Source: Phycisphaerae bacterium (lineage in GTDB: Bacteria; Planctomycetota; Phycisphaerae; Sedimentisphaerales; Anaerohalosphaeraceae). Taken from it: a stretch of 36,500 bases of DNA. Positions 6,777 to 36,240 of this stretch are shown in pieces. The notes under the pieces are model-generated. The model did not search any database and was not told where the DNA came from. It saw only the letters and a list, made by a program, of their open reading frames with translations. Every line of letters starts with the position of its first letter. The first letter of the stretch is position 1. The stretch is from positions 1 to 36,500 of the forward strand of contig JAHDQI010000171.1 of assembly GCA_018433925.1 (NCBI GenBank), given 5' to 3'. The position numbers and the translations under genes are program-made.

Positions 6777-6948
6777 AGATTATAATTGATTTTTTAGGGC
6801 TATAAGCACTTTTTCAAAAAAACTCTGTAACATTTCCGGTCTTTTGGGACAGAGAGTATGGATTTTGGTATTTTGGATGCAGGAAGAGAATGAGGGTATT
6901 GAGGATATACCATTTTTGAGAGCAAACTTAACAAAAGGAGGATTTTTC

Positions 6949-9900: not shown

Positions 9901-12693
9901 GCGGAAATCCTGATTCTTTCGGATGATCCGATGCGTCCGACGACGGTGATCCCGGTGGACCTGGCGGTGCTGCCGGACCCGCTGGAGGTGCTGCCGGAAC
10001 ATGGATTTGACCCTAACGGCTTTGAAGGGGGGCCTTTTGCGCCGGAGGCCATGACTTATACGCTTAGGAATGTCGGAAGCCAGCCGCTTGAGTGGCAATT
10101 GGAGTATTCGGCCACGTGGGTGGATGCTGACGTGACCAGCGGTATATTGAATCCGGCCGAATCTCAGACTGTCCATCTCCAGTTAGGTGAATCGGCTTAT
10201 CAATTGGGTGCGGGATTTTATGAAGATATACTGATTTTCAGGAATCTGCTGCTGGGCAGTCAGCAGTTTCGGCCAGCCGTGCTGAGTGTTCAGCCACCGG
10301 ATCTTTTCACCGAGTCTTTTCGGGGTGACTTTGATCTGTCGGGCAAAACGATTCGTTTTCGCCCGGCGGGGAATATTGCTTATTATGCCTGCTGTGTGGA
10401 GGCCGATGACGCTGCCGACTTTGCGTTCGACCCGGCGGCCGGAACTTTTCTGTCTTTGGGAGATGATGATTTTGCGGAGGTTGTATTTACAGGCGGCCGA
10501 GAGTTTCTCTTTTACGGCGTTTCCTATGATCGTGTCTATATCGGCAGTAACGGATATTTGACGTTCGGGGAGGGGGACTGGTGGTATGAAGGATCGCTGG
10601 AGGACCATTTCATTCTTCCCCGGATTTCCATGCTGTTTACGGATTTGACTCCGCCGAACAATCAATGTATTTCCTGGCAGCAACTGGAGGATCGATTTGT
10701 TGTGACTTTTGAGAACGTGCCGATTTTTGGCGATAAGATGAAGAAAAGCAGTTTTCAGGCAGAGTTGTTCTTTGCTGACCAGGTGATTCGTATGACCTAT
10801 CTTTCGGCAGAAACTGACGGCAGCATCATCGGGCTTTCGAGGGGTCTCGGGCTTCCTGAGTTTTTCGCGGAAAGCGATTTGAGCAGCTATCTGAACTGCT
10901 GTTCCTGCGGAGACCTGGAAGGGGATGGATATGTGGGGATGTCCGACTTGTCAGAGGTTGCGGTGGCCTGGCTTCGCGGTGATTGTATGGGGCCTGACTG
11001 GTGCGGGTGGGCGGATCTGAACCGGGACTCTGCAGTGGACGGGGCCGATCTTTCCCTACTTGCTTCACACTGGCAGGAGGATATGTCGGAGTATGGCTGG
11101 TCCGAGTCGCAGATCTTTCCGGAATTGAATGACGGAACCAATTTTGCCCTCACTCCCTGTTTATCGGGAGACGGCCTTTCAATTTATTTCAGCCGGGATA
11201 TTCCTTCTCTGGGCATTCGCTGTATTGTTCAGGCCACACGAAGCGATCCGGAAGGATCTTTTACTTCCGAGAGAATCCTGACGGAATTGGATACGACCGG
11301 ACTGGGCTTTATGGCGCCCTGGCTTTCTTCGGACGGGCTTCGTTTGTATTATCATGAAAACGATGAAAGTGGAAAGAGTATCATTAAGAAGGCGGAGCGA
11401 GAACCAAATGATTCAATATGGGCCTCTGTGACGGTCTTGGCCGGACTGCCCGAAGATTCATTTCATGCATCATTGACTGAAGATGAAATGCAGATCTTTT
11501 TCTGCAGATCAACAACTGAGGGCTCTGTTTCCGGAAGCGACTGTGTGATGTGGACTGCTTCACGCAGTTCAACAGGGGAGCCGTTTGCTAATGCCCGTCC
11601 TCTGGATGAACTGAATTGTTCGAATCGGCATTATACTCCCCGTATTATGCCGGATGGGTTAACTTTATATTTCTGCTCGAATCGATATGATCCTGCAGAT
11701 TACGATATTTTTCGAGCAAGGCGAAGTGAAGCGAATTTCCTTTTCGGACCAATAGAACGAATCGATGCAGGCAATAATACAAATCATATATTTGTAACAA
11801 GGGATGAAAAAGCGATTTATTTTGTTGAAAATAAGGGCGCCTATCTTGGTATCGGTATGAGCAGACTGGAAAAGAAGGAGTATACATGGTCTGAGCCGCA
11901 GTTATTGGCGGAACTCAATGATGGAGCCAATGTTGCGAATTTGCCGTGTTTGTCCTCTGATGGATTGTCTATTTACTTTGCCCGTTTTATTCCCAGTCTC
12001 GGCTGTTCCTGTATTGTTGAAGCCACCCGTTTGGTACCGGAGGGATTATTTGGCTCCGAACGGGTTTTGTCTGAATTAATGACCACGGGCGATCATGTAC
12101 GAGGTCCCTGGATATCAGAAGACGGTTTTCGACTCTATTATAAGGAAGCTCAACAGTCAGGTCCGGAGTTGTTTCGGATGGCTCGACGAGATTCTCTTGC
12201 GGATCCGTGGATTCCCGCCTTGCGAACATTTCCAGAACTTAATGTCGAGGAAACAGGGATTGCTGAACTCGCTCTAACAAGAGATGAGTTAGTTATTTTT
12301 TATCAAAAGGTTCCCCCGGTTGGTTTTTCGGATATTTACATGGCTACCCGATCCTCAATTGAAGAACCGTTTTCAGATGTTGCCAATGTGGCAGAAATTA
12401 ATACTTTACAATATGAGCAAGGTCCCTATGTAACACCGGATGGGTTTACGATTTATTTTAATTCGGATGGTGCCGAACCCGGTCAGCATGACCTATATAA
12501 AGCGACAAGAATATCCACAATAGAGCCGTTCAGCAAAGTTCAAAAAGTCTCCGCGAGTACTCCGAATAAAGATAGTGTGCCTTGGATTGATTCTACGGAG
12601 ACGATTCTATATTTCTACAGTGAATGGGGCGACAAGAAAGGGATCTGGTTTTCAAAGAAGGAGCCGGTTACAAATTCCTGTCTGCCGCGGTAG
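6949..12693 (+). CDS. Giant secreted subtilisin-family (S8) protease with LamG, BACON-like, dockerin and propeller modules
   Basis: This 1914-residue secreted protein begins with a signal peptide (hydrophobic YVMYLFLFAFLVLSPSLAWA, cleavage after about 35). Module order, by eye: a BACON-like Ig domain (about 37-140), a LamG/concanavalin-like domain (147-360), a second BACON-like repeat (362-460), a fervidolysin-like propeptide (546-622), and a peptidase S8 domain (625-945). Further Ig/BACON-like modules follow (946-1115), then a beta-rich module of unknown family (1115-1315), a two-loop dockerin-like segment (1316-1380), and two tandem 263-residue blocks of PD40/TolB-like propeller blades (1382-1914). 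The catalytic triad is complete: D675 in VIDTGVD, H731 in HGTHCAGT and S891 in NGTSMACPHVSG. The start at 6949 has AAAAGGAGGA seven nt upstream and a perfect promoter; an in-frame TTG at 6844 gives no sensible leader. Active proteolysis is likely. The substrate, and whether the propeller binds glycan or protein, is unknown. The last 1.3 kb looks richer in A/T than the rest. Confidence 0.93.
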   Translation: MKANSIATATSEKISYVMYLFLFAFLVLSPSLAWASLVVTPADGFEPSGQEGGDFAPSSKEYLLYNDGVATLYWGAEWNEIWINTAPEWGVLDPGESVPVLVSLTPAAELLSEGIYTDAVVFTDITHMADYTRQVLLTVTESADTGLAAWWMLDEESGATASDSSGNEHHGTLVNMDSNDWVAGKIGNCLDFDGADDYVEATGYLGIGGSQVRTCCAWIRTIESSGSILTYGSGSVLYGEWLFILNGEGRLQLGINGGNIIGTTIVSDGQWHHVAVVLEAPISGPVKVQDLRLYIDGLPELGIYTNPDAEFHTELSFPVRIGVKESGVGGVLGLFFSGQIDDVRIYNRSLSEAEIAELAGIGPLVVSPDESFDASGEPGGPFTPAYQDYTLKNLSDQSLYWGIDSLPDWLDTDRSFGSLNSGESATVRVFLTEQADLLDEGFYTDSVVFNNLSISQDPVVREVSLDIQFVGGIWTDPHLFEAELIKGTTAQENLRVGNNSAETYSFTVRTRTVQSPAAAQKEKITRDSGGDIPDQIYLDPGSDYPDGQVLVRFQTSGKKQLLKKSFQEAVLSESGQAVVERQYSLIPGLSLVQLPAGMTVEEAIQTYRPMEEVLYIQPNYRVHADSTFPNDPRFSDLWGLHNTGQSGGKLDADIDGPEAWDFIFGSDQVIVAVIDTGVDYTHEDLAPNMWINQPEWNGTPGVDDDGNGYVDDIYGYDFRNEDPNPMDDHYHGTHCAGTIGAAGNNGKGITGICWDVKIMALKFLGSSGSGTTSDAIQCIQYAVQMGANVMSNSWGGGDYSQALYDAIQAAGNANVLFVAAAGNNGSNNDTYPHYPSNYTLPNVISVMATDRNDTRSDFSNYGPTSVDLGAPGTSILSCEPGNRYQYLNGTSMACPHVSGACAALWSLNPGLSADEVKNILLSTVDPTLPGRCVSEGRLNLYNAVLETKVPWLSFDVEEGTLGPDEYADIQVTISAMALEPGFYAAEILILSDDPMRPTTVIPVDLAVLPDPLEVLPEHGFDPNGFEGGPFAPEAMTYTLRNVGSQPLEWQLEYSATWVDADVTSGILNPAESQTVHLQLGESAYQLGAGFYEDILIFRNLLLGSQQFRPAVLSVQPPDLFTESFRGDFDLSGKTIRFRPAGNIAYYACCVEADDAADFAFDPAAGTFLSLGDDDFAEVVFTGGREFLFYGVSYDRVYIGSNGYLTFGEGDWWYEGSLEDHFILPRISMLFTDLTPPNNQCISWQQLEDRFVVTFENVPIFGDKMKKSSFQAELFFADQVIRMTYLSAETDGSIIGLSRGLGLPEFFAESDLSSYLNCCSCGDLEGDGYVGMSDLSEVAVAWLRGDCMGPDWCGWADLNRDSAVDGADLSLLASHWQEDMSEYGWSESQIFPELNDGTNFALTPCLSGDGLSIYFSRDIPSLGIRCIVQATRSDPEGSFTSERILTELDTTGLGFMAPWLSSDGLRLYYHENDESGKSIIKKAEREPNDSIWASVTVLAGLPEDSFHASLTEDEMQIFFCRSTTEGSVSGSDCVMWTASRSSTGEPFANARPLDELNCSNRHYTPRIMPDGLTLYFCSNRYDPADYDIFRARRSEANFLFGPIERIDAGNNTNHIFVTRDEKAIYFVENKGAYLGIGMSRLEKKEYTWSEPQLLAELNDGANVANLPCLSSDGLSIYFARFIPSLGCSCIVEATRLVPEGLFGSERVLSELMTTGDHVRGPWISEDGFRLYYKEAQQSGPELFRMARRDSLADPWIPALRTFPELNVEETGIAELALTRDELVIFYQKVPPVGFSDIYMATRSSIEEPFSDVANVAEINTLQYEQGPYVTPDGFTIYFNSDGAEPGQHDLYKATRISTIEPFSKVQKVSASTPNKDSVPWIDSTETILYFYSEWGDKKGIWFSKKEPVTNSCLPR

Positions 12694-12785: not shown

Positions 12786-13784
12786 TTATAATGCCTCGCG
12801 GGGATGGGCGTTTTGGTATTGTTCCTTCATGCGGCTGGTGGTCACATGGGTGTAGATCTGGGTGGTTGAGAGGGACTGGTGTCCGAGCAGTTCCTGGACG
12901 CTGCGGAGGTCGGCCCCGTTGTTGAGCATGTGAGTGGCGAAACTGTGCCGCAGGGTATGGGGGCTGATGGTCGGGTCCAGTCCGGCTTCGCGTAGGTACT
13001 TGTCCATTTTCCGTCGGACGCTGCGTGTACTGAGCCGCTTGCCGTGCTTGTTGGCGAAGAGGACCTTGCTGTCAAAGCCCGAATCGTTCAACATGCGCCG
13101 GTTTCGGAATTCGATATAATGCTGGATCGACTGGAGGGCGCTGGAGCCGATGGGGCAGATGCGTTCTTTTTTGCCTTTGCCCCGAATGTGGATGACCTCG
13201 CCGAGGAAGTCCACATCCTCGAGGTTCAGTCCGACCAGTTCGCTGACCCGCATGCCGGTGCTGTAGAGGACTTCGAGGATAGCGCGGTCGCGTGCGCCGA
13301 GCCAGGAATCGGAGGGCGGGGTGTTCAGCAGTCGCTGGACCTGTTCATATTCGAGGAATTTCGGCAGCTTTTTGTCCTGCTTGGGTGTTTTGAGGGTGCT
13401 GACGGGGTTGCTGCCGATGATGTTTCGCTTGACGAGGAATTTGTAGAAGCTTCGCAGGGTCGCCAGTTTTCGGGCGGCGGTGGACTTGGTATAGTTTCGC
13501 TCGCTGAGAAAGGCCATGAACTTTCGCATGGTCTGGACATCGGCCTGGCGAAGCAGCTCGTCGATGTGGACCTGTGTCTGGGTTTGTGTGGCCGTCTGCG
13601 TGCCGCCCGCGGAGGATTGCCAGTCGGCGGGACCGGCAGGTTCCGGCTCGGCCCCGTGATCGGCTTTCAGGAAGTCCGAAAACTGTTCGAGATCAGCGCC
13701 GTAACACTTGGCGGTGTGATCGGAGAAATGCTTTTCAAATTTTAAATATCCCAAGAAATCCTGAATAATTGCCGAGTCTTTCAT
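12786..13784 (-). CDS. XerC/XerD-type tyrosine recombinase
   Basis: This 332-residue tyrosine recombinase cuts and rejoins DNA. The housekeeping members resolve chromosome dimers at dif with FtsK. The N-terminal SAM-like core-binding domain (IIQDFLGYLKFEKHFSDHTA, then FMAFLSERNYTKSTAARKLA) precedes the catalytic domain. Active-site residues are visible: Arg179 in STGMRVSELVGL, the Lys of IRGKGKKERICP, HTLRHSFATHM (His and Arg), LLGHQSLSTTQIYTHV (His and nucleophile Tyr). An extra, low-complexity insertion rich in Gln/Thr/Ala (about residues 44-72) splits the N-terminal domain, unlike E. coli XerC. The start at 13784 is preferred to the frame opening at 13820 because GAAGGAAT precedes it. It follows a small ORF in the same direction by 45 nt. 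Whether it is XerC or XerD, or an accessory integrase, cannot be decided; no att site or phage gene is nearby, which favours the housekeeping role. Confidence 0.92.
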   Translation of the reverse strand: MKDSAIIQDFLGYLKFEKHFSDHTAKCYGADLEQFSDFLKADHGAEPEPAGPADWQSSAGGTQTATQTQTQVHIDELLRQADVQTMRKFMAFLSERNYTKSTAARKLATLRSFYKFLVKRNIIGSNPVSTLKTPKQDKKLPKFLEYEQVQRLLNTPPSDSWLGARDRAILEVLYSTGMRVSELVGLNLEDVDFLGEVIHIRGKGKKERICPIGSSALQSIQHYIEFRNRRMLNDSGFDSKVLFANKHGKRLSTRSVRRKMDKYLREAGLDPTISPHTLRHSFATHMLNNGADLRSVQELLGHQSLSTTQIYTHVTTSRMKEQYQNAHPREAL

Positions 13785-13829
13785 AGCTATTCCTTCGTGA
13801 CAAATTTTTTCAAAAACCATATAAGCGAG

Positions 13830-20608: not shown

Positions 20609-22492
20609 TTACTGAATCCAGTCGGCGGCCAGATCGACAAGCTGCTCGATGGAATAGGGATTGGTCCAGCCGGCCGAGAGGGCGGCCAGGTCGTCTATAT
20701 CCACCTGGGTGTCTTTGTTGAAATCGCCGTCGGGATAGGGATTGAGGCACGGCAGGGTAAGCTCAATATAATCGAGGAACATCCAGCCCCAAAAGTGCTC
20801 AATGCGAACGGTGTTGCTGCCGGCGTTTAGCGTAATCTCTCCGAAATCAAAATCAGCCCAGTAGCCGCCTGTATTCAGGAAATTTGGTGTCCAAACCAGT
20901 TGGCCGTTGACCAGGACGTGGTTTTTTTTGTCGCCTGAACCAAGAGGGATCAGGTAGCGAATGATCATCGGGTAATTGCCGGGCTGATTTGCGAAGACGG
21001 TAAAGGTGACCCCTGTTCCAGAGACGGCATCAAAACGCATCGAGCCGGCGCCGGAGTAGCCGATGTAGTTTGTGCTGAAGCTGGGCCCATCGGAGACGGC
21101 GTCTTCGGCTTCGAAGCGAACCGGCCCGGGAAGGGCTTCGCTGCCGACAAAGAGGGAGATTTTTTCGGAGGTGGTGACCAGGCCGGTGCTGTCGGTTGCC
21201 TTTGCCTTGAGGGAGCAGGGTCCGGGGGGGATTTGATTCCATGTGCAGGTATACGGGGGTACGGTATCTTCGCCGAGCTTGGTTGTGCCGTTGAAGAATT
21301 CGACTTTGGTGATGGTTCCGTCGGCATCGTCGGCGTCGGCCCGGATTGTCAGATCGGCGTATTCGGGGATTTTGATCCGGTTCCACGGCCAGGTTATTGA
21401 GCCGCTTGGCGGGCTGGTGTCGTGGGGGTAGTTTTTCCAGTCGATGAGTTCATCCAGCGTGATGATGTCCGGGTCGTGATAGACATCGGACAGGTAGTTG
21501 GGGTCCGTCTCCCATATAAAATGGCCGGACCAGACGGAAAACCAGATCCACCAGACGTCGTCTACCCTGATTTTGTCCGGGTCGGGGAGGATTCCCGATT
21601 CGGTCAGGGCCACGAGTTTGGTTCCTTCGTGGCGGTTTTGCGTGTCCTGCCAGAAGGCGACCATGCTGGTGGGACCGTCTGGATAGATGTCCATGCCCGC
21701 GATGTCCACGTAGTCGTCGCCGGGATACCAGGCGGGGTCGCCGACGGTATAGACCCAGATCAGGTGGTGGAGGCCGTGGATGTTGACGTATCGATCATAC
21801 ATGAGATGCCAGAGCTCGATGAAGGGGCCGGGGCCTTTGGCTCCCCACCAGAACCAGCCGCCTGAGGCCTCGTGGAGCGGCCGCCAGAGAACGGGGATGC
21901 CGTCCTGCTGAAACTTGGCCAGCTCGAGGGCGATGGCATCGAGGTCGCGGATGAGGAGCTGGTATCGCCAGCTATTCGGATCGGCCAGGGCTGCCTGGAT
22001 ATCAAATGTGGTTCCATTGGTATAGAATCCCCGCCACCAGGGATATTCTTCGGATTCGATCAGGTCTGTTGGGGCGTTCCAGTGCCAGCTTAAGCTGACG
22101 ATTCCGCCGCCGATCTGTGCCCAGTCGATCCAGCTTTCTGTCTGGCCGGTCGGGTTGGCTCCGTGTTCGATTCGAGAGGGGGAATAATTTATCAGATCGA
22201 AGACGCCGACAGCGGGCTGTTTTCCGGAGATGGCTTCGACGTAGAAGATGTCTTCGAGGGATTGCTGTCCGGAAAGGACTTTGTGGCCGTAGGAATCGAC
22301 CAGAAAGGACAGGAGTGATTTTGCCTCGTTCGTGGCCTGTGGGTTGGTCAGATTTTTTGGGGGTCTCAGCAGGCCGATTGAGGTGGTCAGGGCGGATTGG
22401 GCGGCCGAAAGGGCGGTTTGGGCGGGATGGGCCTTCACCGCCGGGGACGCGTACAGAACGCATAACATCAGGATTAATCGAGCTTTGCGCAT
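20609..22492 (-). CDS. Secreted GH26 endo-mannanase-like hydrolase with Ig, CBM and dockerin-like modules
   Basis: This 627-residue secreted protein has a signal peptide (RLILMLCVLYASPAVKA). The GH26 domain (about 40-358) carries VLSGQQSLEDI, SWHWNAPTDL and the acid/base WRPLHEASGGWFWWG (Glu208). The nucleophile is in KLVALTESGILPD (Glu298). GH26 members cleave beta-1,4-mannan (or less often beta-1,3-xylan) with retention. An Ig-like module follows (about 362-452), then a CBM6/35-like jelly roll (455-580: RFEAEDAVSDGPS, IGYSGAGSM, GWMFLDYIELTLP). Last is a C-terminal dockerin-like tail whose first loop DGDFNKDTQVDIDDLAAL is canonical, while the second half lacks the Asp-rich loop. The ATG at 22492 is chosen over a TTG at 22510, though neither has a strong ribosome binding site. 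It follows the GH5 gene by 88 nt and is probably in its operon. Confidence 0.9.
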   Translation of the reverse strand: MRKARLILMLCVLYASPAVKAHPAQTALSAAQSALTTSIGLLRPPKNLTNPQATNEAKSLLSFLVDSYGHKVLSGQQSLEDIFYVEAISGKQPAVGVFDLINYSPSRIEHGANPTGQTESWIDWAQIGGGIVSLSWHWNAPTDLIESEEYPWWRGFYTNGTTFDIQAALADPNSWRYQLLIRDLDAIALELAKFQQDGIPVLWRPLHEASGGWFWWGAKGPGPFIELWHLMYDRYVNIHGLHHLIWVYTVGDPAWYPGDDYVDIAGMDIYPDGPTSMVAFWQDTQNRHEGTKLVALTESGILPDPDKIRVDDVWWIWFSVWSGHFIWETDPNYLSDVYHDPDIITLDELIDWKNYPHDTSPPSGSITWPWNRIKIPEYADLTIRADADDADGTITKVEFFNGTTKLGEDTVPPYTCTWNQIPPGPCSLKAKATDSTGLVTTSEKISLFVGSEALPGPVRFEAEDAVSDGPSFSTNYIGYSGAGSMRFDAVSGTGVTFTVFANQPGNYPMIIRYLIPLGSGDKKNHVLVNGQLVWTPNFLNTGGYWADFDFGEITLNAGSNTVRIEHFWGWMFLDYIELTLPCLNPYPDGDFNKDTQVDIDDLAALSAGWTNPYSIEQLVDLAADWIQ

Positions 22493-22580
22493 TTTTAATA
22501 GAGAACGCAACCCGTCTTTTTCGGATTTCTATCGACATCGGCCGCGGCTATCGGCGACCGATTGGCTGCATTATATCCGA

Positions 22581-23831
22581 TTATTGTCCGCAAAGCCAGT
22601 ATTTTGTGAATTCCGCGAGGTCGTCGATCTCCACGGCGCCATCGTGGTAGAAGTCGCAGTCCTGGCACCATGTGTTGTCCGGGCCGCAGTCTGTGCTGTT
22701 CCACCAACCGGCAAAACGGGCCAAGTCATCGAGGGTAAAGCAGCCCCAGCCGGGCTGGTTGTCATTGCGTTTTAAGTACAGCCGATCCTTGGCAAAACAT
22801 CCCATTTCGCCTTCGCCGCAACGGAGCTGCCAGGGGCCGGGCAGCCAGACGTTATCGGGGCGCCAAAACATCGAGGGCTCCCAGTCATAACTGGCGATCC
22901 AGCCGCTGTGGCTGATTTGGTATTGCTCGAAAAAGTCGTGAATGGGCTGGCCGTAGTTGGTGATTGTGCCGTCACTGAGGGAGCCGGATGAGGCGGTTTC
23001 GCTGAATCCCCATTCGGTGGCAAAGACAGGGAAGACCGCGGCGCAGTCGGTGACATGCTTGAGGAACGAGGTTTTGTTCGGGGGAAGCCAACTGTTGTCG
23101 AGCCATTGGAGGGGATACAGGTGGGATGTGTATACGATATTTGTGCCGCTGATGGGGTTGCTGACGACCGGGGTCAGTACTTTGCAATAGTCCGGGGTGC
23201 CTACGAGGATGAGGTTGTCGGGGGCGTAGGTGCGGACGAGATCGACCCAGTTCTGCATGTCGGTGCGGACACTGGCCCATTTTTGCGAGTCCAAGAGGAA
23301 GTCCCGGTTGACGGGTTCCTGGAAGAGCTCAAAGAGGACGTGGCTATCGTTGGCGAATTTCGGGGCCATATAGGTCCAAAATTCGTTTGTGGGCTGAATG
23401 TGGTCGAATGTGTTCCTGCTATAGTGCCAGTCGATAATGGCATAGACATCTCTCTGGGCGCAGCGGTCCACGGCCGCACGAAGCAGATCATAGAGAATGG
23501 TATCGTTGGGGTTAAAAGGGTAGGGCCGTGATGCGATATCGGGGGGCGTGATGCACAGGCGGATGACTCTTGTGTACCAGCCGGAGGAGGCGCCCTGGGA
23601 GTCGGTTTTGTCCGTGAGGCGGTCGATCATATTAATGACGCCGCCGTGCCATTGCTCGACGGAGCCGATATCGACCATGTCAATCCCCCTGAGGACCACG
23701 ACGTTTCCGGCGGGGTCTTTGATTTTGTTGCCATCTACATGCAGCCAGGGCAGGGCCGCGAAGAGAGGGGACATCAGGGCAAGAAAAAGGACCAGGGAGG
23801 CCACGGCAGAGTTTTTGTATTCCTTCATCAT
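22581..23831 (-). CDS. Secreted GH5 glycoside hydrolase with dockerin-like tail
   Basis: This 416-residue protein has a signal peptide (SAVASLVLFLALMSPLFA). The GH5 clan-A barrel spans about 28-345 and starts with WLHVDGNKIKDPAGNVVVLRGI, which is typical for this family. YAIIDWHYS (the strand-4 His) and the acid/base segment VLFELFQEPVNRD (Glu172) follow, then VYTSHLYPLQW and the nucleophile in FATEWGFSE (Glu273). GH5 enzymes cut beta-glucans or mannans; beside a GH26 gene, mannan is the likely substrate, but this is inference. The residue before the acid/base is Gln171, where the family almost always has Asn. The tail (357-416) holds two dockerin-like halves: a degenerate first one (FTLDDLARFAGWW) and a second with CDFYHDGAVEIDDLAEFTKYWL. 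AAGGGATCG precedes the tandem ATGs at 23831/23828. It is the first gene of the GH5-GH26 pair. Confidence 0.9.
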   Translation of the reverse strand: MMKEYKNSAVASLVLFLALMSPLFAALPWLHVDGNKIKDPAGNVVVLRGIDMVDIGSVEQWHGGVINMIDRLTDKTDSQGASSGWYTRVIRLCITPPDIASRPYPFNPNDTILYDLLRAAVDRCAQRDVYAIIDWHYSRNTFDHIQPTNEFWTYMAPKFANDSHVLFELFQEPVNRDFLLDSQKWASVRTDMQNWVDLVRTYAPDNLILVGTPDYCKVLTPVVSNPISGTNIVYTSHLYPLQWLDNSWLPPNKTSFLKHVTDCAAVFPVFATEWGFSETASSGSLSDGTITNYGQPIHDFFEQYQISHSGWIASYDWEPSMFWRPDNVWLPGPWQLRCGEGEMGCFAKDRLYLKRNDNQPGWGCFTLDDLARFAGWWNSTDCGPDNTWCQDCDFYHDGAVEIDDLAEFTKYWLCGQ

Positions 23832-25468: not shown

Positions 25469-27430
25469 ATGCAATTCAATAGAGGGTATCTTTTTCAGGC
25501 AATCACAGGTCTGTTTTTGGCTGTTTTTTTGAGCGGGCCGGTATTGGGGGATCCGAATTTGCTGCCGGCGATTCGATTTGAGGCCGAGGGAGGTACCTTT
25601 ACGGGGCCGCTGGTTAAGGTAAGCGATGCGGTGGAGGGGTATTCGGGAGCCGGTTATGTGACGGGCTTTCAGCGTGTGGACCCGAACGATGAAATGGTCA
25701 TGGTGGCCGTCTATGCCCACGAGGCGGAAGATTATCCGCTGATTATCGGGTATCGTTCTCATCACGCGACAAAGAAAAACCGACTTTTTGTCAACGACAT
25801 AGACGTCGTGGGCGATCATATCTATTACCCGATGTCGGCGGAGTTTACGGAGCTGGCCTACGGAGCGATTCCGCTGCAGGCCGGGACCAATACGGTCAAG
25901 TTTGCCGTTGCGCCCGGAGGGGAGGGGTGGATGGATGTGGATTATTTTGATATTAAGGCGCTGAATCCTCAGGCCATGGAGCCGAGTCCGAAATACGGGG
26001 CAACGGTTTTTCCGGGGACCGATCAACTGTGCTGGCTGAATCCGGATGCCGGTCCGGGCGACATTATTACCTGCGATGTGTATCTCGGTACGAGTGAGCC
26101 GGATGATCTGCTGGCCGATTACGGGCTGACGAAGATCGCTTCGGGGTTGTGGGGAAGCTGCGTATCAATTCCCTTTGAGCTTGAATCGATGCAGACTTAT
26201 TACTGGATTGTGGACTGCACGGATTATAACGGGGGCTCGCCGATTTTGCTGCGGGGGCCGACCTGGACCTTTACGACGGGGATTGCCCCGACTCTTGTGG
26301 AGGCCGAGGACGGGTATATTACCGGGCCGGAGATGCGGGCAGCCACCGTTGTGCCGGGCTACTCGGGCGACGGTTATGTGACGGGCTTTAATCAGATTGA
26401 TCCGCCGAATGAGAAAGTGACGGTTTCGTTCTTTGCCGCGGAGGCGGGGGATTATCCGCTTTCGATGGGCTTTCATTCTCCGTACGGGGACAAGGCGCAG
26501 TATCTGTTTGTCAACGGGGATCAAAAGGCCGATGCGGCCTTTTTCGGAACGGAGGACTGGGACGTTTTGGACTATGGCGATGTCGCCCTCGAGGAGGGGA
26601 TGAATACCATCACCGTTTCGACTCGATGGGGATGGTTCTATTTGGATTATTTTATGATTCAGAATCTGGCGCCGGCGGCTTCGAGTCCGAAGCCCGCTCA
26701 TCTTTCGACGGCCGGAACGGATCTGGCTCAGTTGTGCTGGACGAATCCGAATCCGGGTCCGGGGGATACGATTACCTGCGATGTTTATTTCGGGGATGAT
26801 CCGAATTTGCTGGCTCCTTATGATAATTTTGAGCTGCCTTTGCTGGCGTCGGGCGTGTCGGGCGATTGCGTTTCGATTGCCGGTCCGCTGGAACCGTCGC
26901 ATGATTATTACTGGGTGGTGAACTGCTGGGATTCCGAGGACGGGACGCCGGTTTTTCTGCGGGGCGGCCTGTGGAATTTCAAAACGGGCAATACCCCGCC
27001 TGTGGTTACTGCCGGTCCGAATCTCCAGGTCTGGCTGGGCAAAGACGGCGTTCCGGGGCAGGTGACGGTCGAGATTGACGCGACGGTGACCGATGACGGA
27101 CTGCCTTCGGGGACGCTGACGTATCTGTGGACCCAGCAGTCGGGCGAGGCCACCGTGGAGATCGATCCGGATGATACGGAAGATATTTCGTTGACCTTTA
27201 CGGAAGTGGGTGTGTACGGTTTTCGTCTGGAGGCCAGTGATACGGTCTTTTCGAGGACTTCGACGATGTATGTGACTGTGACGGAGACGCCGTGCCAGGC
27301 GGCGATGGCCAGTTCGGCCTACCAGCCGTATGACGGCGACCTGGACGATGACTGTTATGTCAGTCTGAGCGATTTTGCGATGCTGGCTTCGGACTGGCTG
27401 AATTGTACGGACCCGGATGGTTGTCAATAA
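25469..27430 (+). CDS. Secreted non-catalytic CBM/Ig/PKD protein with dockerin-like tail
   Basis: This 653-residue secreted protein has a signal peptide (LFQAITGLFLAVFLSGPVLG). Modules by eye: a CBM6/35-like jelly roll (about 30-165: IRFEAEGGTFTGP, GYSGAGYVTGFQ, GWMDVDYFDI), then an FN3/Ig-like module with paired cysteines (170-270: CDVYLGTSEP, YYWIVDC, WTFTT). A second jelly roll follows (275-397: VEAEDGYITGPEM, GYSGDGYVTGFN, WGWFYLDYFMIQN), then a second Ig module (400-505), a PKD-like module (510-605) and a single Asp-rich EF-hand loop DGDLDDDCYVSLSDFAML near the end. No catalytic domain is visible, so binding or scaffolding is the likely role. GAAAGGAGA precedes the ATG. The next gene, 52 nt downstream, has the same modular plan and a near-identical ribosome binding region. 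Confidence 0.85.
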   Translation: MQFNRGYLFQAITGLFLAVFLSGPVLGDPNLLPAIRFEAEGGTFTGPLVKVSDAVEGYSGAGYVTGFQRVDPNDEMVMVAVYAHEAEDYPLIIGYRSHHATKKNRLFVNDIDVVGDHIYYPMSAEFTELAYGAIPLQAGTNTVKFAVAPGGEGWMDVDYFDIKALNPQAMEPSPKYGATVFPGTDQLCWLNPDAGPGDIITCDVYLGTSEPDDLLADYGLTKIASGLWGSCVSIPFELESMQTYYWIVDCTDYNGGSPILLRGPTWTFTTGIAPTLVEAEDGYITGPEMRAATVVPGYSGDGYVTGFNQIDPPNEKVTVSFFAAEAGDYPLSMGFHSPYGDKAQYLFVNGDQKADAAFFGTEDWDVLDYGDVALEEGMNTITVSTRWGWFYLDYFMIQNLAPAASSPKPAHLSTAGTDLAQLCWTNPNPGPGDTITCDVYFGDDPNLLAPYDNFELPLLASGVSGDCVSIAGPLEPSHDYYWVVNCWDSEDGTPVFLRGGLWNFKTGNTPPVVTAGPNLQVWLGKDGVPGQVTVEIDATVTDDGLPSGTLTYLWTQQSGEATVEIDPDDTEDISLTFTEVGVYGFRLEASDTVFSRTSTMYVTVTETPCQAAMASSAYQPYDGDLDDDCYVSLSDFAMLASDWLNCTDPDGCQ

Positions 27431-27482: not shown

Positions 27483-28718
27483 ATGCTAAGCGGAAAGAAT
27501 CGATATATGTTTTTATTGGCAGCCCTGTTTGCGGTTCTGTTTGGTCAGCTCTCTCCGGCGGAGAGAACACAGACCCTTCTTCTGGAAGCGGAAGAGGCGG
27601 TCGCGGATGAAAACGGGCCGTATTTTTCGACGGCGATTGCCGGCTATTCCGGTATCGGGCATATGGTTTATGGGGGTCTGACCCAGAATAATACGGGCCT
27701 CAATTTTTCCGTGTCTGCGCGGGATACCGGTTCTTATCCTATTACGATCCGGTTTTGCAGCCCGTTCGGCGATAAGAGTAATGATCTCTTTGTGAACGGC
27801 GCGAAGGAATCGAGCATCAATTTCTATCTGACAGATTACACATGGCATGACTATGTATACGGCGATATTTCCCTGAACGAAGGAAATAATACGATTCGAA
27901 TCCAGGAGGACTGGGGTTACTTTTATGTTGATTATATCACGCTGGGGAATTTTCCGGTGACGGCGACTGATCCGGTGCCGGCGATTGATGAAACGGTCGG
28001 CGGGAATCTGTCTGTGTTGTGCTGGACGAAGCCGGACCCGAATGATCCGCAGCATGTCGTTACCTGCAATGTTTACCTCGGCACTACGCCGCCGAACCGG
28101 TCTTTGCCGGGATACGGATTAACCCAGATTGCCACCGAGACTGACCAGACGTGCGCGTCGATTCCGTTTTCGCTGGACCCGTTTGAAACGTACTATTGGG
28201 TGGTGGACTGCTGGGACGACGGCGGCCAGGGGCCTTATCTTCTTCGGGGCTATACATGGACCTTTAATACCAACAATGATTTCCCCACGGCCGATGCGGG
28301 GCCGGATCAGTATGTGGCCCTGGGCAATGACGGGGATCCGCTGAGCGCAACCGTCACGCTGGACGGAACGGGGACTACGGATGACGGGCTGCCTTCGGAT
28401 ACGCTGAATTACCTGTGGCAGCAGGTGAGCGGGCCGGACGGGATCATCATTTTCCCGTATGACGCGGCCGAGACAGAGGTTGTGCTGCCGGCGCTGGGGA
28501 CTTATGTGTTTTCTTTGACGGTGGACGATACGGACCTGGAGGATAGCGATACGGTTGCGATCCATGTCTTTGAGAACCGGTGCGAGGCCCTGAAGTCACA
28601 GGCCGGTTTTGAAACAGACCTCGGCGATATCAACGAGGACTGTTCTGTGGATATTACGGACCTGTCCTTGCTGGTTGCGGATTGGCTGGAATGCAACAGC
28701 TTGATGCCCTGTATTTAA
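27483..28718 (+). CDS. Secreted CBM/Ig/PKD protein with dockerin-like tail (shorter paralogue)
   Basis: This 411-residue secreted protein has a signal peptide (YMFLLAALFAVLFGQLSPA). One CBM6/35-like jelly roll (about 32-155: LLEAEEAVADENGP, IAGYSGIGHMVYG, DWGYFYVDYITLG) is followed by an Ig/FN3-like module with cysteines (157-265: CNVYLGTTPP, YYWVVDCWDDG, WTFNT). A PKD-like module comes next (268-362: ADAGPDQYVALG, LNYLWQQVSGPD) and then a single dockerin-like loop DINEDCSVDITDLSLLVADW. It is plainly a shortened relative of the upstream protein (one CBM-Ig unit instead of two), most likely by duplication. GAAAGGAGA lies before the ATG and the two genes are 52 nt apart, so they are probably co-transcribed. 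No catalytic site is seen. Confidence 0.85.
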   Translation: MLSGKNRYMFLLAALFAVLFGQLSPAERTQTLLLEAEEAVADENGPYFSTAIAGYSGIGHMVYGGLTQNNTGLNFSVSARDTGSYPITIRFCSPFGDKSNDLFVNGAKESSINFYLTDYTWHDYVYGDISLNEGNNTIRIQEDWGYFYVDYITLGNFPVTATDPVPAIDETVGGNLSVLCWTKPDPNDPQHVVTCNVYLGTTPPNRSLPGYGLTQIATETDQTCASIPFSLDPFETYYWVVDCWDDGGQGPYLLRGYTWTFNTNNDFPTADAGPDQYVALGNDGDPLSATVTLDGTGTTDDGLPSDTLNYLWQQVSGPDGIIIFPYDAAETEVVLPALGTYVFSLTVDDTDLEDSDTVAIHVFENRCEALKSQAGFETDLGDINEDCSVDITDLSLLVADWLECNSLMPCI

Positions 28719-29702: not shown

Positions 29703-29801
29703 GAATATAGGCTGAAAACGGGTTCCGAAAAAAGACAATTTTGTGGAACTTTCCTCAGCTTCTGAACGATTGGTTCTTCGGGTCTCTTTTTGGAAGGATC
29801 T

Positions 29802-31256
29802 ATGATAACTCGATGGAGTGATTGGGCCTTCAGGGTGGCTGCCGTGTGTGTGGCGTTGGCGGGATTAAGCTGCCATGTGACGCAGAGAGGGGCTGAGGGG
29901 CCAGGGGGCGAGAGAAAGCCCAACATTATTGTGATTTTTATTGATGATCTGGGCTACGGGGATCTTGAGCCGTTTGGGTCTGCGCAGAATAAGACGCCGC
30001 GTCTGGACCGCATGGCGGCTGAGGGAATCAAGTTTACCTCTTTTTATTCCGCGGCTCCGGTCTGTTCTCCTTCCCGCGCGGCTTTGATGACGGGCTGCTA
30101 TCCGAAGCGGGTGGGTCTGGCGGCCGGGTCGAATTCGCGTACGGTGCTGTGGCCGAAGGACACGATGGGGCTGAATCCGGACGAGAAGACGCTGGCGGAG
30201 ATTCTTCGTGAGGCGGGGTACGCGACCGGTTGTTTCGGCAAGTGGCACCTGGGCGATCAGCCCGCGTTTTTGCCAGGGCAACAGGGTTTTGATCGCTACT
30301 TCGGGATTCCGTATTCCAATGATATGTGGCTGCTTCATCCTCGCGCGGAGGAATGGAATTTCAGCCGGCTTCCGCTTTTGCGAGATCATCAGGTGGTCGG
30401 CGAAGTTGAAACCATGGCCGATCAGGCGGATTTGTGCCGGCGTTTTACGGAGGCGGCGATTGCTTTTATTCGAGAGCATCGGGATCGGCCGTTTTTTGTG
30501 TATCTGCCGCACGCATTCGTTCATGTGCCGCGCAGCGCCCGCCCCGCGTTTTTGCGACGGGCGGGAATTACCGAGCCGCTGGATGAGGAACAAATGGCTG
30601 TGGATATTCACTATTTTGAGCAGGCGCGTGCCCGTGCGCAGATTGAGGAGGTGGACTGGTCGGCGGGTCGCATCCTGGATACTGTTCGTGATCTTGGCCT
30701 GGCTGAGCATACGGTGGTGATCTTTACTTCGGATAACGGGGGCGATCAAGGGTGCAGTAATGCGCCGCTTCGGGGTCATAAAGGGACCACCTGGGAAGGG
30801 GGGATGCGTGTGCCGGCCATTGCCTGGTGGCCGGGCAGGATTCCGGCAGGGGGCGTTTGTGATGAAGTGACCACGACCCTGGATTTGCTGCCTACGCTGG
30901 CGGTGCTGGCGGGGGGAAGCGTTCCTGAGGGGCGGGTTATTGACGGCCGGGATATTCGGGGGCTGCTGTTTGGTCAGCCCGGGGCCAGGTCGCCGCATGA
31001 GGCGTTTTTTTATTACAGCGGCAATGAATTGAAGGCGGTTCGCGCGGGGGCGTGGAAACTGCATACGAACGGTGCGCTTTATGATCTGGAAGAGGACATC
31101 GGCGAGAACCGGGACGTTGCCGCATCGCATCCGGAGGTGGCGACGCGGCTTCGAGGGTACCTGGATCAGGCGGATCGGGACCTGGGGTGTGAAGCGAATT
31201 GCCGGCCGGCGGGCGAAGTGACTGAGCCGGAATTTTTGCTGCCTATTGCAAGGTGA
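29802..31256 (+). CDS. Secreted sulfatase (arylsulfatase family)
   Basis: This 484-residue sulfatase removes sulfate esters. The formylglycine signature CSPSRAALMTG is present with Cys88 as the residue to be converted, and it is of the CxPxR type used by anaerobic and aerobic FGly systems. KPNIIVIFIDDLGYGDLEPF supplies the metal-binding Asp pair, and FGKWHLGDQ, TVVIFTSDNGGDQG and GHKGTTWEGGMRVPAI are further family motifs. A hydrophobic leader (FRVAAVCVALAGLSC) implies export; the Cys at its end is not in an ideal lipobox, so lipidation is uncertain. The start at 29802 has AAGGAT upstream; the longer frame begins at a TTG. Only 4 nt separate it from the next gene, a CBM/MBL-fold fusion, so the two are almost certainly one operon. 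The natural substrate, perhaps a sulfated polysaccharide, cannot be read. Confidence 0.93.
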   Translation: MITRWSDWAFRVAAVCVALAGLSCHVTQRGAEGPGGERKPNIIVIFIDDLGYGDLEPFGSAQNKTPRLDRMAAEGIKFTSFYSAAPVCSPSRAALMTGCYPKRVGLAAGSNSRTVLWPKDTMGLNPDEKTLAEILREAGYATGCFGKWHLGDQPAFLPGQQGFDRYFGIPYSNDMWLLHPRAEEWNFSRLPLLRDHQVVGEVETMADQADLCRRFTEAAIAFIREHRDRPFFVYLPHAFVHVPRSARPAFLRRAGITEPLDEEQMAVDIHYFEQARARAQIEEVDWSAGRILDTVRDLGLAEHTVVIFTSDNGGDQGCSNAPLRGHKGTTWEGGMRVPAIAWWPGRIPAGGVCDEVTTTLDLLPTLAVLAGGSVPEGRVIDGRDIRGLLFGQPGARSPHEAFFYYSGNELKAVRAGAWKLHTNGALYDLEEDIGENRDVAASHPEVATRLRGYLDQADRDLGCEANCRPAGEVTEPEFLLPIAR

Positions 31257-31260
31257 GGGA

Positions 31261-32784
31261 ATGAAAAAAACATTTTCTTTCGTGCCGGCCATTTTGCTCT
31301 GGTCTGTCCTTTTTGTCTATGGGGCAGACGAGTTTCCGGGGGCGGTGTCGTCTTCTGCGGAGGTCTTTTGCCGTGTCTATGAAGCTGAAGAGGCGACGCT
31401 TTTGGATGCTATCGCGATTGGGAATGACGCGTCTGCAAGCGGTGGGAAATTTTTGCGTATGGGAGAGTCGGGCGGCGTGCGTTTTCAGGTGTTTGTTGAA
31501 AAGCCGGGGCGGTATGCCGTCGGCATTCGATACCGTACCGACGGGGGAGGCAAGGCGCAGCGGCTTTTGATCAATGACAGGCCATACGCACCGGAGATCG
31601 GGTTTCCCGGCTGTGCGGAATGGAATGAGATGGAGACGCGTGCGGGCCTGCGGGCCGGGGCCAATACCATCGAGGTGAGGAAATCCTGGGGCCACATGGA
31701 TCTTGATTCCATGACCATCAGGGGGCCGGTTTTTGAACGGCCGGAAATAACGCCTGTCTCGAATATTTATTATCTTGAGCAAAGTCAGAGCGACCTGTTT
31801 ATCCAGGTTGAGAAAAAGCAGAATGAATTTCTTTCGATCATGCAGGATCAAAAACCGGTTCCCTTTGCCCAGGAGGAGGTTTCGTATTTGCAGGATGCGA
31901 TCCGCGTTCGGATCGGGCGGGATTTCCTGGAGACGCTGGAGGCGGGGACGAGAGAACTGGCTTTTTGTTTTCGGGATACGCAGCCGGTCCGGTTTCGACT
32001 GGAGATTCGGGAGGCCGTGCCGAAAGCGGCCCTGTGTATTGTTTCGTTTGATGTCAGTCACGGGGCATCGGTGTTGATTGTTTTGCCGACGGGCAAGACG
32101 CTTCTTGTTGACACCGGCAAAGAAAGCATGTGCAAAGAACGGGTTCTTCCTTTCCTGGAGCGGCACCGTATTACGCCGGATACCCTGTGGATTACTCATT
32201 ATCACGAGGACCATTGCGGGGGAGAGGGGCTGCTGACGGAAAAATTCAGCGGCCTTGTCAAAAAAGATTACCGGGATTTTAAAACGGAAGATACCTTTGA
32301 ATTTGAAGGGGTTGAGGTAACGATTTTGAATTCTTATGCGGACGGTCAGTGCGAGAATTCACGGTCACTGGCTTTTCGAATGGAATACAAGGGATTTATT
32401 TATCTTCATGACGGGGATATTTACGGGCAGAACCAGCAGCGCATTCTCCGCCGGTATTACGCACGAAACAAGGCGCCTCTGCCGGAGGCCGATGTGTACC
32501 ATGCCAATCACCATTTTCACGGCTCAGTGGATGTCCCTTATCTGCGAACGATCAATCCGTTCTTGATCCTTGTATCGGCTGAAGAGCATGTGTACGGCAG
32601 GGGGGCCTATACCTATGATGTGCAGCGACAGGTGTACCCGTACCTGAGGGAAAGCGGGCGGCTTATTGAAGATTTGCTTTCGTTTGAGACGGGACATGCC
32701 GTCATTCGGGTTATTGACGGCGACACCTGGAGTTATGAAACGTATAAGGATCTGGATGCTGTGATTGCCGGGCTGGCGCGGTAG
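31261..32784 (+). CDS. Secreted CBM fused to a ComEC-like metallo-beta-lactamase-fold domain
   Basis: This 507-residue exported protein has a signal peptide (FSFVPAILLWSVLFVYGA). Residues 35-160 form a CBM6/35-like jelly roll (VYEAEEATLLDAIA, GGVRFQVFVEKPGRYAVGI, SWGHMDLDSMTIRGP). Residues 161-250 look like a CBM_X2-type Ig module (FLETLEAGTRELAFCF). Residues 255-507 are a metallo-beta-lactamase fold: LLVDTGKES, the metal site THYHEDHCGG (His313, His315, Asp317, His318), then FIYLHDGDIYG and HANHHFHGS (414-422). The order and spacing of the last motifs resemble the C-terminal MBL domain of ComEC/COG2333 proteins, with two extra residues in the HHGS motif. It could be a secreted phosphodiesterase, nuclease or esterase held on glycan by its CBM; the substrate is unknown. 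The ATG lies 4 nt after the sulfatase stop, with GAGGG overlapping that stop. Confidence 0.85.
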   Translation: MKKTFSFVPAILLWSVLFVYGADEFPGAVSSSAEVFCRVYEAEEATLLDAIAIGNDASASGGKFLRMGESGGVRFQVFVEKPGRYAVGIRYRTDGGGKAQRLLINDRPYAPEIGFPGCAEWNEMETRAGLRAGANTIEVRKSWGHMDLDSMTIRGPVFERPEITPVSNIYYLEQSQSDLFIQVEKKQNEFLSIMQDQKPVPFAQEEVSYLQDAIRVRIGRDFLETLEAGTRELAFCFRDTQPVRFRLEIREAVPKAALCIVSFDVSHGASVLIVLPTGKTLLVDTGKESMCKERVLPFLERHRITPDTLWITHYHEDHCGGEGLLTEKFSGLVKKDYRDFKTEDTFEFEGVEVTILNSYADGQCENSRSLAFRMEYKGFIYLHDGDIYGQNQQRILRRYYARNKAPLPEADVYHANHHFHGSVDVPYLRTINPFLILVSAEEHVYGRGAYTYDVQRQVYPYLRESGRLIEDLLSFETGHAVIRVIDGDTWSYETYKDLDAVIAGLAR

Positions 32785-34550: not shown

Positions 34551-35399
34551 TTATAGAATCGAGGCCAGCGGGACGATTCCCTCGCTGAGGAGTTCAACGT
34601 TATAAAAGCGGTCGAGGGTGAAGGTCAGGAGGCATCCGTGGCTGTGCTCAGAAGCCAGGATCAGGGCATTGTCACCGGCGATTGTCCATCCTTCATCCTG
34701 CGGCTGGTGGCCGAGAACAAAGACATCCACGTCCAGTCTCTGGGCGAGCCGATCGAGGGTGTCCTGGCTGTGTCTGCGGCCCCAGGTCAGGAGGTAGACG
34801 GGGTTGGGCCGCCGCATGTCGGCGATTGTGTAGGGGCGGTTTAGAATTTCGGTATCGAAACTGTCGATGTATCGGTCGGCCGGCAAGGAATGGGAAATCC
34901 AAATCCTGTTTTGGCACTTGACGGCCAGCGGCTGCGAAAGCAGATAGCGGATGAGGGCTTCATTGACCAGCTCGTAGTCGTTTTGATACTGGCGTTTCAT
35001 GGCATCTTTCATGGCGGTATTCATTTCTTTGCCGTTTTTCAGTACGCTTCCGTTGGTGATAACGGCCGTGTCGTGATTGCCGAGGAGGATGTGGACCTGG
35101 CCGGGATAAAGGAGTTTGTAGCGGATTGCATCCAGCAGGAGGCGATAGGAAAGGCAGCCGCCTTTCTCATCCTCCGGCCCGCCGTGGATGATCTCCTGGA
35201 AAATGACATGGGTTTCGGGGTGATTTTCGAGGTCCGCGTAATCGACAATTTTTTCGAAATGCCTGCGATGGCCGTGCAGGTCCCCGGAGACAATAACCCG
35301 TCCCTGATCCGGCAAACAAATGATATTGCCCTGCCGACAGGGATCAGATTGATTGGCCTGGGCCCCCTTGAGGTAGAGTTGTATGGTCTGTTGCGGCAT
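34551..35399 (-). CDS. Calcineurin-like metallophosphoesterase (PPP-like), paired with the kinase
   Basis: This 282-residue protein has the metallophosphoesterase signature set: VIVSGDLHGHRRHFEKI (GDLHGH at 39-44), IIHGGPEDEKGG in the position of GDxxDRG, ILLGNHDTAVI (GNHD at 107-110), WISHSLP (His170) and VFVLGHQPQDEG (His231). The order matches PPP-type serine/threonine phosphatases, but the second motif is altered and GNHE is GNHD, so the true substrate (phosphoprotein, nucleotide or other) is open. No signal peptide. The chosen ATG at 35399 lies inside the 3' end of the kinase gene, giving a 56-nt overlap; the frame is open to 35429 but has no better start. The overlap implies that kinase and phosphatase are co-expressed and probably act on the same targets. 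Confidence 0.85.
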   Translation of the reverse strand: MPQQTIQLYLKGAQANQSDPCRQGNIICLPDQGRVIVSGDLHGHRRHFEKIVDYADLENHPETHVIFQEIIHGGPEDEKGGCLSYRLLLDAIRYKLLYPGQVHILLGNHDTAVITNGSVLKNGKEMNTAMKDAMKRQYQNDYELVNEALIRYLLSQPLAVKCQNRIWISHSLPADRYIDSFDTEILNRPYTIADMRRPNPVYLLTWGRRHSQDTLDRLAQRLDVDVFVLGHQPQDEGWTIAGDNALILASEHSHGCLLTFTLDRFYNVELLSEGIVPLASIL

Positions 35400-36240
35400 T
35401 GGCCTGGGCTCGGTTACCAAAGATTTCACGAATCATAATATCCAGCCGGGCAATGATTTCCGACATATTGGAGGGCCGGTCGGCCGGACGCTCCTTGACG
35501 CATTCCATGACGAGGTTTGAAAGTGAGGCAGGGATCTTTCGGTAGATTTCGCTGGGCGACCTGCATTCCATGGTATTCGGGACGGAGAAGCCGTATTCGT
35601 TCTTCTTGGGGATCAGGGTGGGGACGTTTTTTCCGGTCAGGGCCCAATACATGGTGGCTCCGAGATTGAAAATGTCGGTTCGGTGGCTCAGGTGCTCCCG
35701 GCGGACCTGCTCGGGGGCAATGTAGTCCGGTGTTCCCTGGATTCTCTTTTTAATTTCTCCGATTTTGCAGCTTTGCCCGAAATCGATGATTTTGATGGAT
35801 CCCTTTGGGCTGAATAGGATATTATTGGGCTTGATGTCACAATGGACGTAGCCCTTCTGGTGCATGGCGTTGAGAGCGGTGGCGACCATGCGAAAAACCA
35901 GCAGGATATCGCCTAAACTGATACCCGGCAGCTCTTCGAGACTCTGGCCGTCGAAGTACTCCATGCTTAGCAGTAACTCTTGTGTTCGCAATAGTTTGCG
36001 TTTTCTTAATATCTTGTGGCATTTGCGGATATAAGGATGGTCGATCTGTCTGCTGATTCGGAATTCCGTCTCCATTTGTTCGAAGATGCGCATATCTTCG
36101 GGGGTTTCCATAATCGCTCGTTTGAGGGCGACGGTTTCCCTGGTTTCTTCGTCTGTGGCCAGGTAAATAAAACTTCGGGCTCCCGATCCGATTCGTTTGA
36201 TAATCGTAAAGCCCTCTATGTCAATCACATCTTTCGGCAT
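35344..36240 (-). CDS. Hanks-type serine/threonine protein kinase
   Basis: This 298-residue cytoplasmic kinase is nearly only a kinase domain. Visible elements are the glycine-rich loop IGSGARSFIY (18-27), the ATP-anchoring Lys40 in TVALKRAI and a helix-C Glu near 57-59. The catalytic loop YVHCDIKPNNILF has Asp135, IIDFGQSCKIG has DFG at 153-155, and GTPDYIAPEQ is the APE segment at 169-178. The residue before the catalytic Asp is Cys (HCD rather than HRD), which marks it as a non-RD kinase, so activation-loop phosphorylation is probably not needed. There is no membrane segment or extracellular sensor, unlike PknB-type kinases, so it should sense an internal or partner signal. A promoter lies about 100 nt upstream, and the 3' end overlaps a metallophosphoesterase gene. 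Confidence 0.95.
   Translation of the reverse strand: MPKDVIDIEGFTIIKRIGSGARSFIYLATDEETRETVALKRAIMETPEDMRIFEQMETEFRISRQIDHPYIRKCHKILRKRKLLRTQELLLSMEYFDGQSLEELPGISLGDILLVFRMVATALNAMHQKGYVHCDIKPNNILFSPKGSIKIIDFGQSCKIGEIKKRIQGTPDYIAPEQVRREHLSHRTDIFNLGATMYWALTGKNVPTLIPKKNEYGFSVPNTMECRSPSEIYRKIPASLSNLVMECVKERPADRPSNMSEIIARLDIMIREIFGNRAQANAATDHTTLPQGGPGQSI

Follow-up and report, generated by a model that had tools for sequence, protein, structure and literature searches.

What does a metallo-beta-lactamase (MBL) domain of the type found in the competence protein ComEC do in a protein that is exported and carries a carbohydrate-binding module (CBM)? This question is raised by a gene near the end of a 36,500-nucleotide stretch of DNA from a Phycisphaerae bacterium (contig JAHDQI010000171.1, positions 1 to 36,500), referred to below as the window. 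The original prediction, made from the sequence of the window, had described a secreted CBM joined to a ComEC-type MBL domain whose metal ligands are intact, in a setting of glycan breakdown, and had coupled it to the sulfatase gene that precedes it. Pfam and TIGR00361 matches, alignment and AlphaFold/Foldseek comparisons confirmed that observation, and the interpretation placed on it was partly supported.

Domain architecture of the CBM-MBL protein

The open reading frame is unbroken (Table 1) and its ATG lies 4 nt past the TGA stop codon (31254-31256) of the upstream gene, which, as predicted, encodes a sulfatase, of genuine S1 type with a CSPSR motif. The sequence immediately 5' of the ATG is AGGTGAGGG. 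Sequence and structure comparison gave the protein an export signal, a CBM35 and an MBL fold. The AxA signal-cleavage site is clearer in the homologues than in the window protein. The CBM35 matched PF16990 at 43.7 bits (gathering score 28; E 4e-11), and the jelly roll that had been called CBM6/35-like is accordingly a CBM, of family 35 and not of family 6. The nearest CBM35s in related genomes belong to GH5-Big_7-CBM35 proteins. W143, the likely stacking tryptophan of the CBM35 SWG motif, is kept in the window protein and in L008 and is lost in two of the four copies (L049 2215-3717 and L050 790-2289, which have KSRG and RAR-G). The CBM_X2-like module scored 18.3 bits against PF03442 in the window protein, below the gathering score of 28.9, which two homologues passed at 45.3 and 43.9 bits.

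In the comparison with the ComEC/Rec2 model TIGR00361, residues 260-441 aligned with its MBL portion (E 2e-14), and the score of 52.5 bits fell short of the model's cut-off of 190. The domain scan of the 507-aa protein found no transmembrane competence (channel) domain, just the signal peptide, CBM35, X2 and MBL regions. An AlphaFold model built on 49 sequences had a mean pLDDT of 75, with about 95 across the MBL core and low values at residues 441-451, and superseded an earlier two-sequence model (pLDDT 39). With this model Foldseek ranked the ComEC MBL domain 9IC4 first (E 2.9e-12, TMt 0.70), a match that is not fully independent because ComEC-type relatives were in the AlphaFold input alignment. 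Second came 3ZM8, a GH26-CBM35 mannanase, and the CBM35 structure 2W1W was matched at TMt 0.82. When the MBL family profile was compared with solved structures, ComEC again came first, followed by Pce/CbpE and then by other MBLs. A fold search of a viral library returned partial matches alone, of uncertain meaning. Conservation in three homologues, together with the model's matches to both 9IC4 and CBM35 structures, shows that this architecture did not come from a chance match.

Table 1. Positions of the CBM-MBL gene, its domains and motifs, and neighbouring genes in the window.
Feature	Position	Strand	Basis
GH26-Big_7-CBM35, predicted endo-mannanase	20609..22510	-	Pfam 2e-69; PDB 3zm8 1.7e-100
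GH5	22581..23831	-	Pfam 1e-25; PDB GH5 endoglucanases
Two-CBM35 + PKD protein	25469..27430	+	Pfam
CBM35-PKD protein, dockerin-like tail	27483..28718	+	Pfam
S1 sulfatase (CSPSR)	29790..31256	+	Pfam 7e-56; motif; 4 nt upstream of CBM-MBL
CBM35-X2-MBL gene, 507 aa	31261..32784	+	Pfam, TIGRFAM, AlphaFold, Foldseek
Predicted Sec signal peptide, residues 1-21 (approximate)	31261..31323	+	By-eye reading; homologues MKKT...AFA/GQ
CBM35, mannanase-type, residues 39-153	31375..31719	+	Pfam 4e-11; PDB 3zm8, 2w1w
X2-type Ig module, residues 163-243	31747..31989	+	CBM_X2, stronger in homologues
ComEC-type MBL domain, residues 255-507	32023..32781	+	Profile, fold and tree comparisons
Motif II, H313-Y-H315-E-D317-H318	32197..32214	+	H313, D317, H318 in 43/43 relatives
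Motif IV, D386, bridging metal ligand	32416..32418	+	D in 43/43 relatives
Motif V, H417-H418-F-H-G-S, changed from HHGS	32509..32526	+	HH in 43/43 relatives
H443-V-Y-G-R447-G448 in place of NxYGHP	32587..32604	+	Alignment

Active site and ComEC-type relatives

Judged from the alignment, all the di-metal ligands of the MBL family are present in the window protein. The ComEC-type signature, H-x-[HD]-x-D-H with the motif IV D and the motif V HH, is found in THYHEDHCGG (residues 312-321), D386 and HHFHGS (residues 417-422); position 315, His here, is split among the 43 relatives between H (21) and D (22). HHFHGS and HVYGRG stand where a ComEC-type nuclease has its substrate motifs HHGS and N-x-[YF]-G-[HF]-P. 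After the motif V HH the other relatives have G, S or A, where the window protein has FHGS. At the NxYGHP site all 43 relatives share N, H and P, for which each of the four CBM-MBL proteins has H, R and G; the site reads NRYGFP in two solved ComECs. The Ser of HHGS is known to aid nuclease activity in ComEC (PMC12455585). Because the loops are rewritten in this way (NxYGHP to HxYGRG; HHGS to HHFHGS), the CBM-MBL protein is no ordinary competence nuclease, and since they depart from both ComEC and its secreted relatives, homology does not fix the type of ester that would be cleaved.

The premise that ComEC-type MBL domains are normally tied to a DNA channel did not survive comparison with viral contigs. 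A scan of these contigs with a profile of the secreted relatives returned 57 loci. Judged by eye, nearly all of the 45 frames that we read seemed to carry a signal peptide or lipobox, with too little length for a channel domain. Several of ten relatives subjected to a domain scan carried SLH + HHH, SLH, choline-binding, Excalibur or lamin-tail modules. With so many viral-contig relatives secreted and several anchored, proteins that combine export, a ComEC-type MBL and an anchor are an already known kind. Two of these loci (L068 1904-3532 and L069 1865-3526) encode secreted SLH proteins with a ComEC-type MBL and HHH_3, possibly surface nucleases, and a third (L113 2375-4021) resembles Pce in layout, joining an MBL to choline-binding repeats, although the MBL itself best matches ComEC structures.

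In a tree that was unrooted and unevenly sampled, the CBM-MBL proteins grouped as a separate clade (support 100/100) on a stem of length 1.84, to the exclusion of the seven ComECs and 49 secreted relatives sampled. We rejected the idea of a displaced ComEC, based on this placement and on the full ComEC encoded elsewhere in the genome. A phage origin was not supported, there being no phage match and the full architecture being absent from the viral contigs. Nor was a defence nuclease: PADLOC matches to MBL parts were weak and no defence gene was seen among the Pfam-named neighbours.

Distribution and gene neighbourhood

The CBM-MBL protein is rare within its order, its carriers being 4 of 161 genomes, one of which (G558) has merely a contig-edge fragment matching the CBM part. 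Three homologues with 57-60% identity and the same architecture over their sequenced length were found in two other genomes of the order, G440, with two copies, one of them on the Phycisphaerales MAG contig A3_bin-117 and cut at its end, and G441, with one; G564 and G561 appear from their match coordinates to be these two genomes again. Searches of the order (161 genomes) and of evenly drawn sets from the class (397) and the phylum (392) turned up no further full-length match, and the five other members of the genus that were searched lacked the protein. The whole-genome searches covered Planctomycetota, and the all-species scan was sensitive to near-exact peptides only.

The neighbourhoods of the homologues point to mannan. 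On contigs C49 of G440 and C18 of G441 the gene lies between a GH5 gene and a GH26 gene on a single strand (GH5 > CBM-MBL > GH26), and the MBL stop overlaps the GH26 start by 4 nt. On contig C2 of G440 a GH5 gene precedes the CBM-MBL gene, the contig ends after it, and a SASA acetylesterase gene is divergent upstream. The GH26 proteins matched solved endo-mannanases in the PDB comparison, while the operon GH5 matched 1vjz and the bifunctional mannanase/glucanase 3w0k. The window genome, G440 and G441 have two GH26 genes each, one of which adjoins the CBM-MBL gene (about 9 kb off in the window, where the GH26-CBM35 and GH5 genes lie at 7-10 kb from it). GH5 adjacency alone is weaker evidence because GH5 matches are plentiful in G440 (20) and G441 (17), and the operon shared by the two genomes amounts to roughly one observation because they are close relatives.

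These searches did not bear out the coupling to a sulfatase, which is local to the window genome: the closest homologues come after GH5 genes and, on contigs long enough to show it, before GH26 genes. A PF00884 scan found no convincing S1 sulfatase in G440 or G441, each of which has one weak partial match (18.9 and 25.2 bits), and a sulfatase is therefore not a general partner of the CBM-MBL protein. G558 lacks GH26 and gave eight sulfatase matches, and the neighbour of its fragment is a polysaccharide-export gene, a context that weakens the link to mannan.

The window has other features of note. C-terminal dockerin-like segments (DxNxD...DLxxL...W) occur in its GH26 and GH5 proteins and in both CBM35 proteins (Table 1), and the CBM-MBL protein is without such an end. 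The contig that carries the mannan genes also encodes a tyrosine recombinase of the phage integrase family (12786-13820), a subtilase of 1949 aa with Laminin_G_3 and PD40 repeats (6844-12693) and, on the reverse strand, a Ser/Thr kinase and a calcineurin-like phosphoesterase whose genes overlap by about 86 nt (34551-36240).

A candidate accessory enzyme of mannan breakdown

Based on the family-type metal ligands, on the nearest structures being ComEC and then CbpE/Pce, and on the GH5 and GH26 neighbours, we propose, with a probability of roughly 0.4, that the CBM-MBL protein is a secreted accessory enzyme of beta-mannan breakdown, most likely a phosphodiesterase acting on a glycan substituent. 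Mannan is a plant and algal polysaccharide, and we infer that it is the ligand on which the CBM35, perhaps together with the X2 module, would hold the protein. The di-metal MBL domain would then hydrolyse an ester on or in the glycan by means of a metal-activated water, presumably with phosphodiester chemistry and presumably in vivo. The most likely target would be a phosphodiester-linked substituent, much as Pce removes phosphorylcholine from teichoic acid, and its removal would give the GH26 and GH5 mannanases access. On bpNPP the ComEC MBL domain acts as a Mn-dependent phosphodiesterase, and its monoesterase activity is negligible (PMC8579336); Pce, a phosphodiesterase that removes phosphorylcholine from glycan (PMC10704324, PMC4929436), belongs to MBL family cd07731 (PMC10704324). 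Several findings count against a mannan phosphodiesterase, namely the loss of W143 in two of four copies, the absence of GH26 from G558, the rewritten loops, and literature searches that found no phosphodiester substituent of beta-1,4-mannan. Slightly more tentatively, the protein could be described as an MBL-fold enzyme devoted to polysaccharide breakdown, a mannan-targeted phosphodiesterase or esterase from the ComEC/Pce branch that removes an undescribed beta-mannan substituent. As far as sequence can speak to it, a role in mannan breakdown is plausible, and so is the new esterase or phosphodiesterase originally envisaged.

The choice of substrate and chemistry admits other readings. The closest structure is that of a DNase domain (PMC12455585) and the SLH-anchored relatives L068 and L069 carry an HHH_3 of DNA-binding type, both of which would fit an extracellular nuclease that has kept its ComEC-type activity and is tethered by its CBM35 to polysaccharide particles or biofilm with extracellular DNA. 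We consider this unlikely, as HHGS and NxYGHP are both rewritten in all four CBM-MBL proteins, the window protein has no DNA-binding module, and the neighbours are predicted mannanases, not nucleic-acid genes. A carbohydrate esterase or lactonase of MBL fold, deacetylating glucomannan or opening a lactone on it, is unlikely in our judgement: the nearest characterised families are phosphodiesterases, and no carbohydrate esterase family is known to us to have an MBL fold, even if mannans are often acetylated, the SASA acetylesterase gene lies close by on G440 C2, and the His at position 315 yields the canonical HxHxDH.

The S1 sulfatase gene 4 nt upstream might suggest that the CBM-MBL protein is itself a sulfatase, one of MBL fold that partners the S1 enzyme on a sulfated mannan. 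Such enzymes exist (PMC5426288), and one structure, PDB 8gyg, matched the secreted-MBL profile; this match was far weaker than those to ComEC or Pce, however, and the genomes of the closest homologues have only their weak partial PF00884 matches, which leaves this reading quite improbable. Least credible of all, and very improbable indeed, is the reading in which a decayed piece of ComEC, or an error of assembly, was joined to a CBM by accident. The protein is rare and patchy, including among members of its genus, but the same architecture with intact ligands recurs in three homologues from two other genomes, and a ComEC of the genome itself is encoded on contig C129 (203.7 bits) and falls outside the CBM-MBL clade.

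If the proposed phosphodiesterase is active on mannan, an MBL-fold hydrolase would join the mannan-degrading toolkit, and mannans may bear a substituent that nobody has sought. More broadly, the MBL domain of the ComEC/Pce type may have been retargeted to different polymers through swaps of its anchoring module, as suggested by comparison with known systems. The C-terminal MBL domain of ComEC/Rec2 (9IC4, 30BT), the top structural match, has its fold and metal-ligand motifs in common with the CBM-MBL proteins, which differ in lacking the channel and OB domains, in being secreted and fused to CBM35-X2, and in their rewritten HHGS and NxYGHP. Their motifs II and IV are closer together by about 24 residues than those of the secreted relatives (68-71 vs 91-95), and a deletion of this size after motif II was dropped as a diagnostic feature because the solved ComECs 9vcb and 9vcf are likewise short. 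Pce/CbpE (1WRA, 2BIB), nearest after ComEC in the profile searches, is similarly a secreted phosphodiesterase of MBL fold that is anchored to glycan by a separate module, but its anchor consists of choline-binding repeats and not a CBM35, and its motif III His (PMC8579336) is absent from the window protein, which has Asn366 there, as in ComEC. The secreted stand-alone ComEC-type MBLs share a signal peptide and the MBL family with the CBM-MBL proteins, and several have an anchoring module, but none of the ten that were scanned has a CBM35. That module has its best PDB match, and the model its second-ranked fold match, in the mannanase PaMan26A (3ZM8), where the CBM35 is borne by a GH domain, whereas in the window protein it is borne by an MBL.
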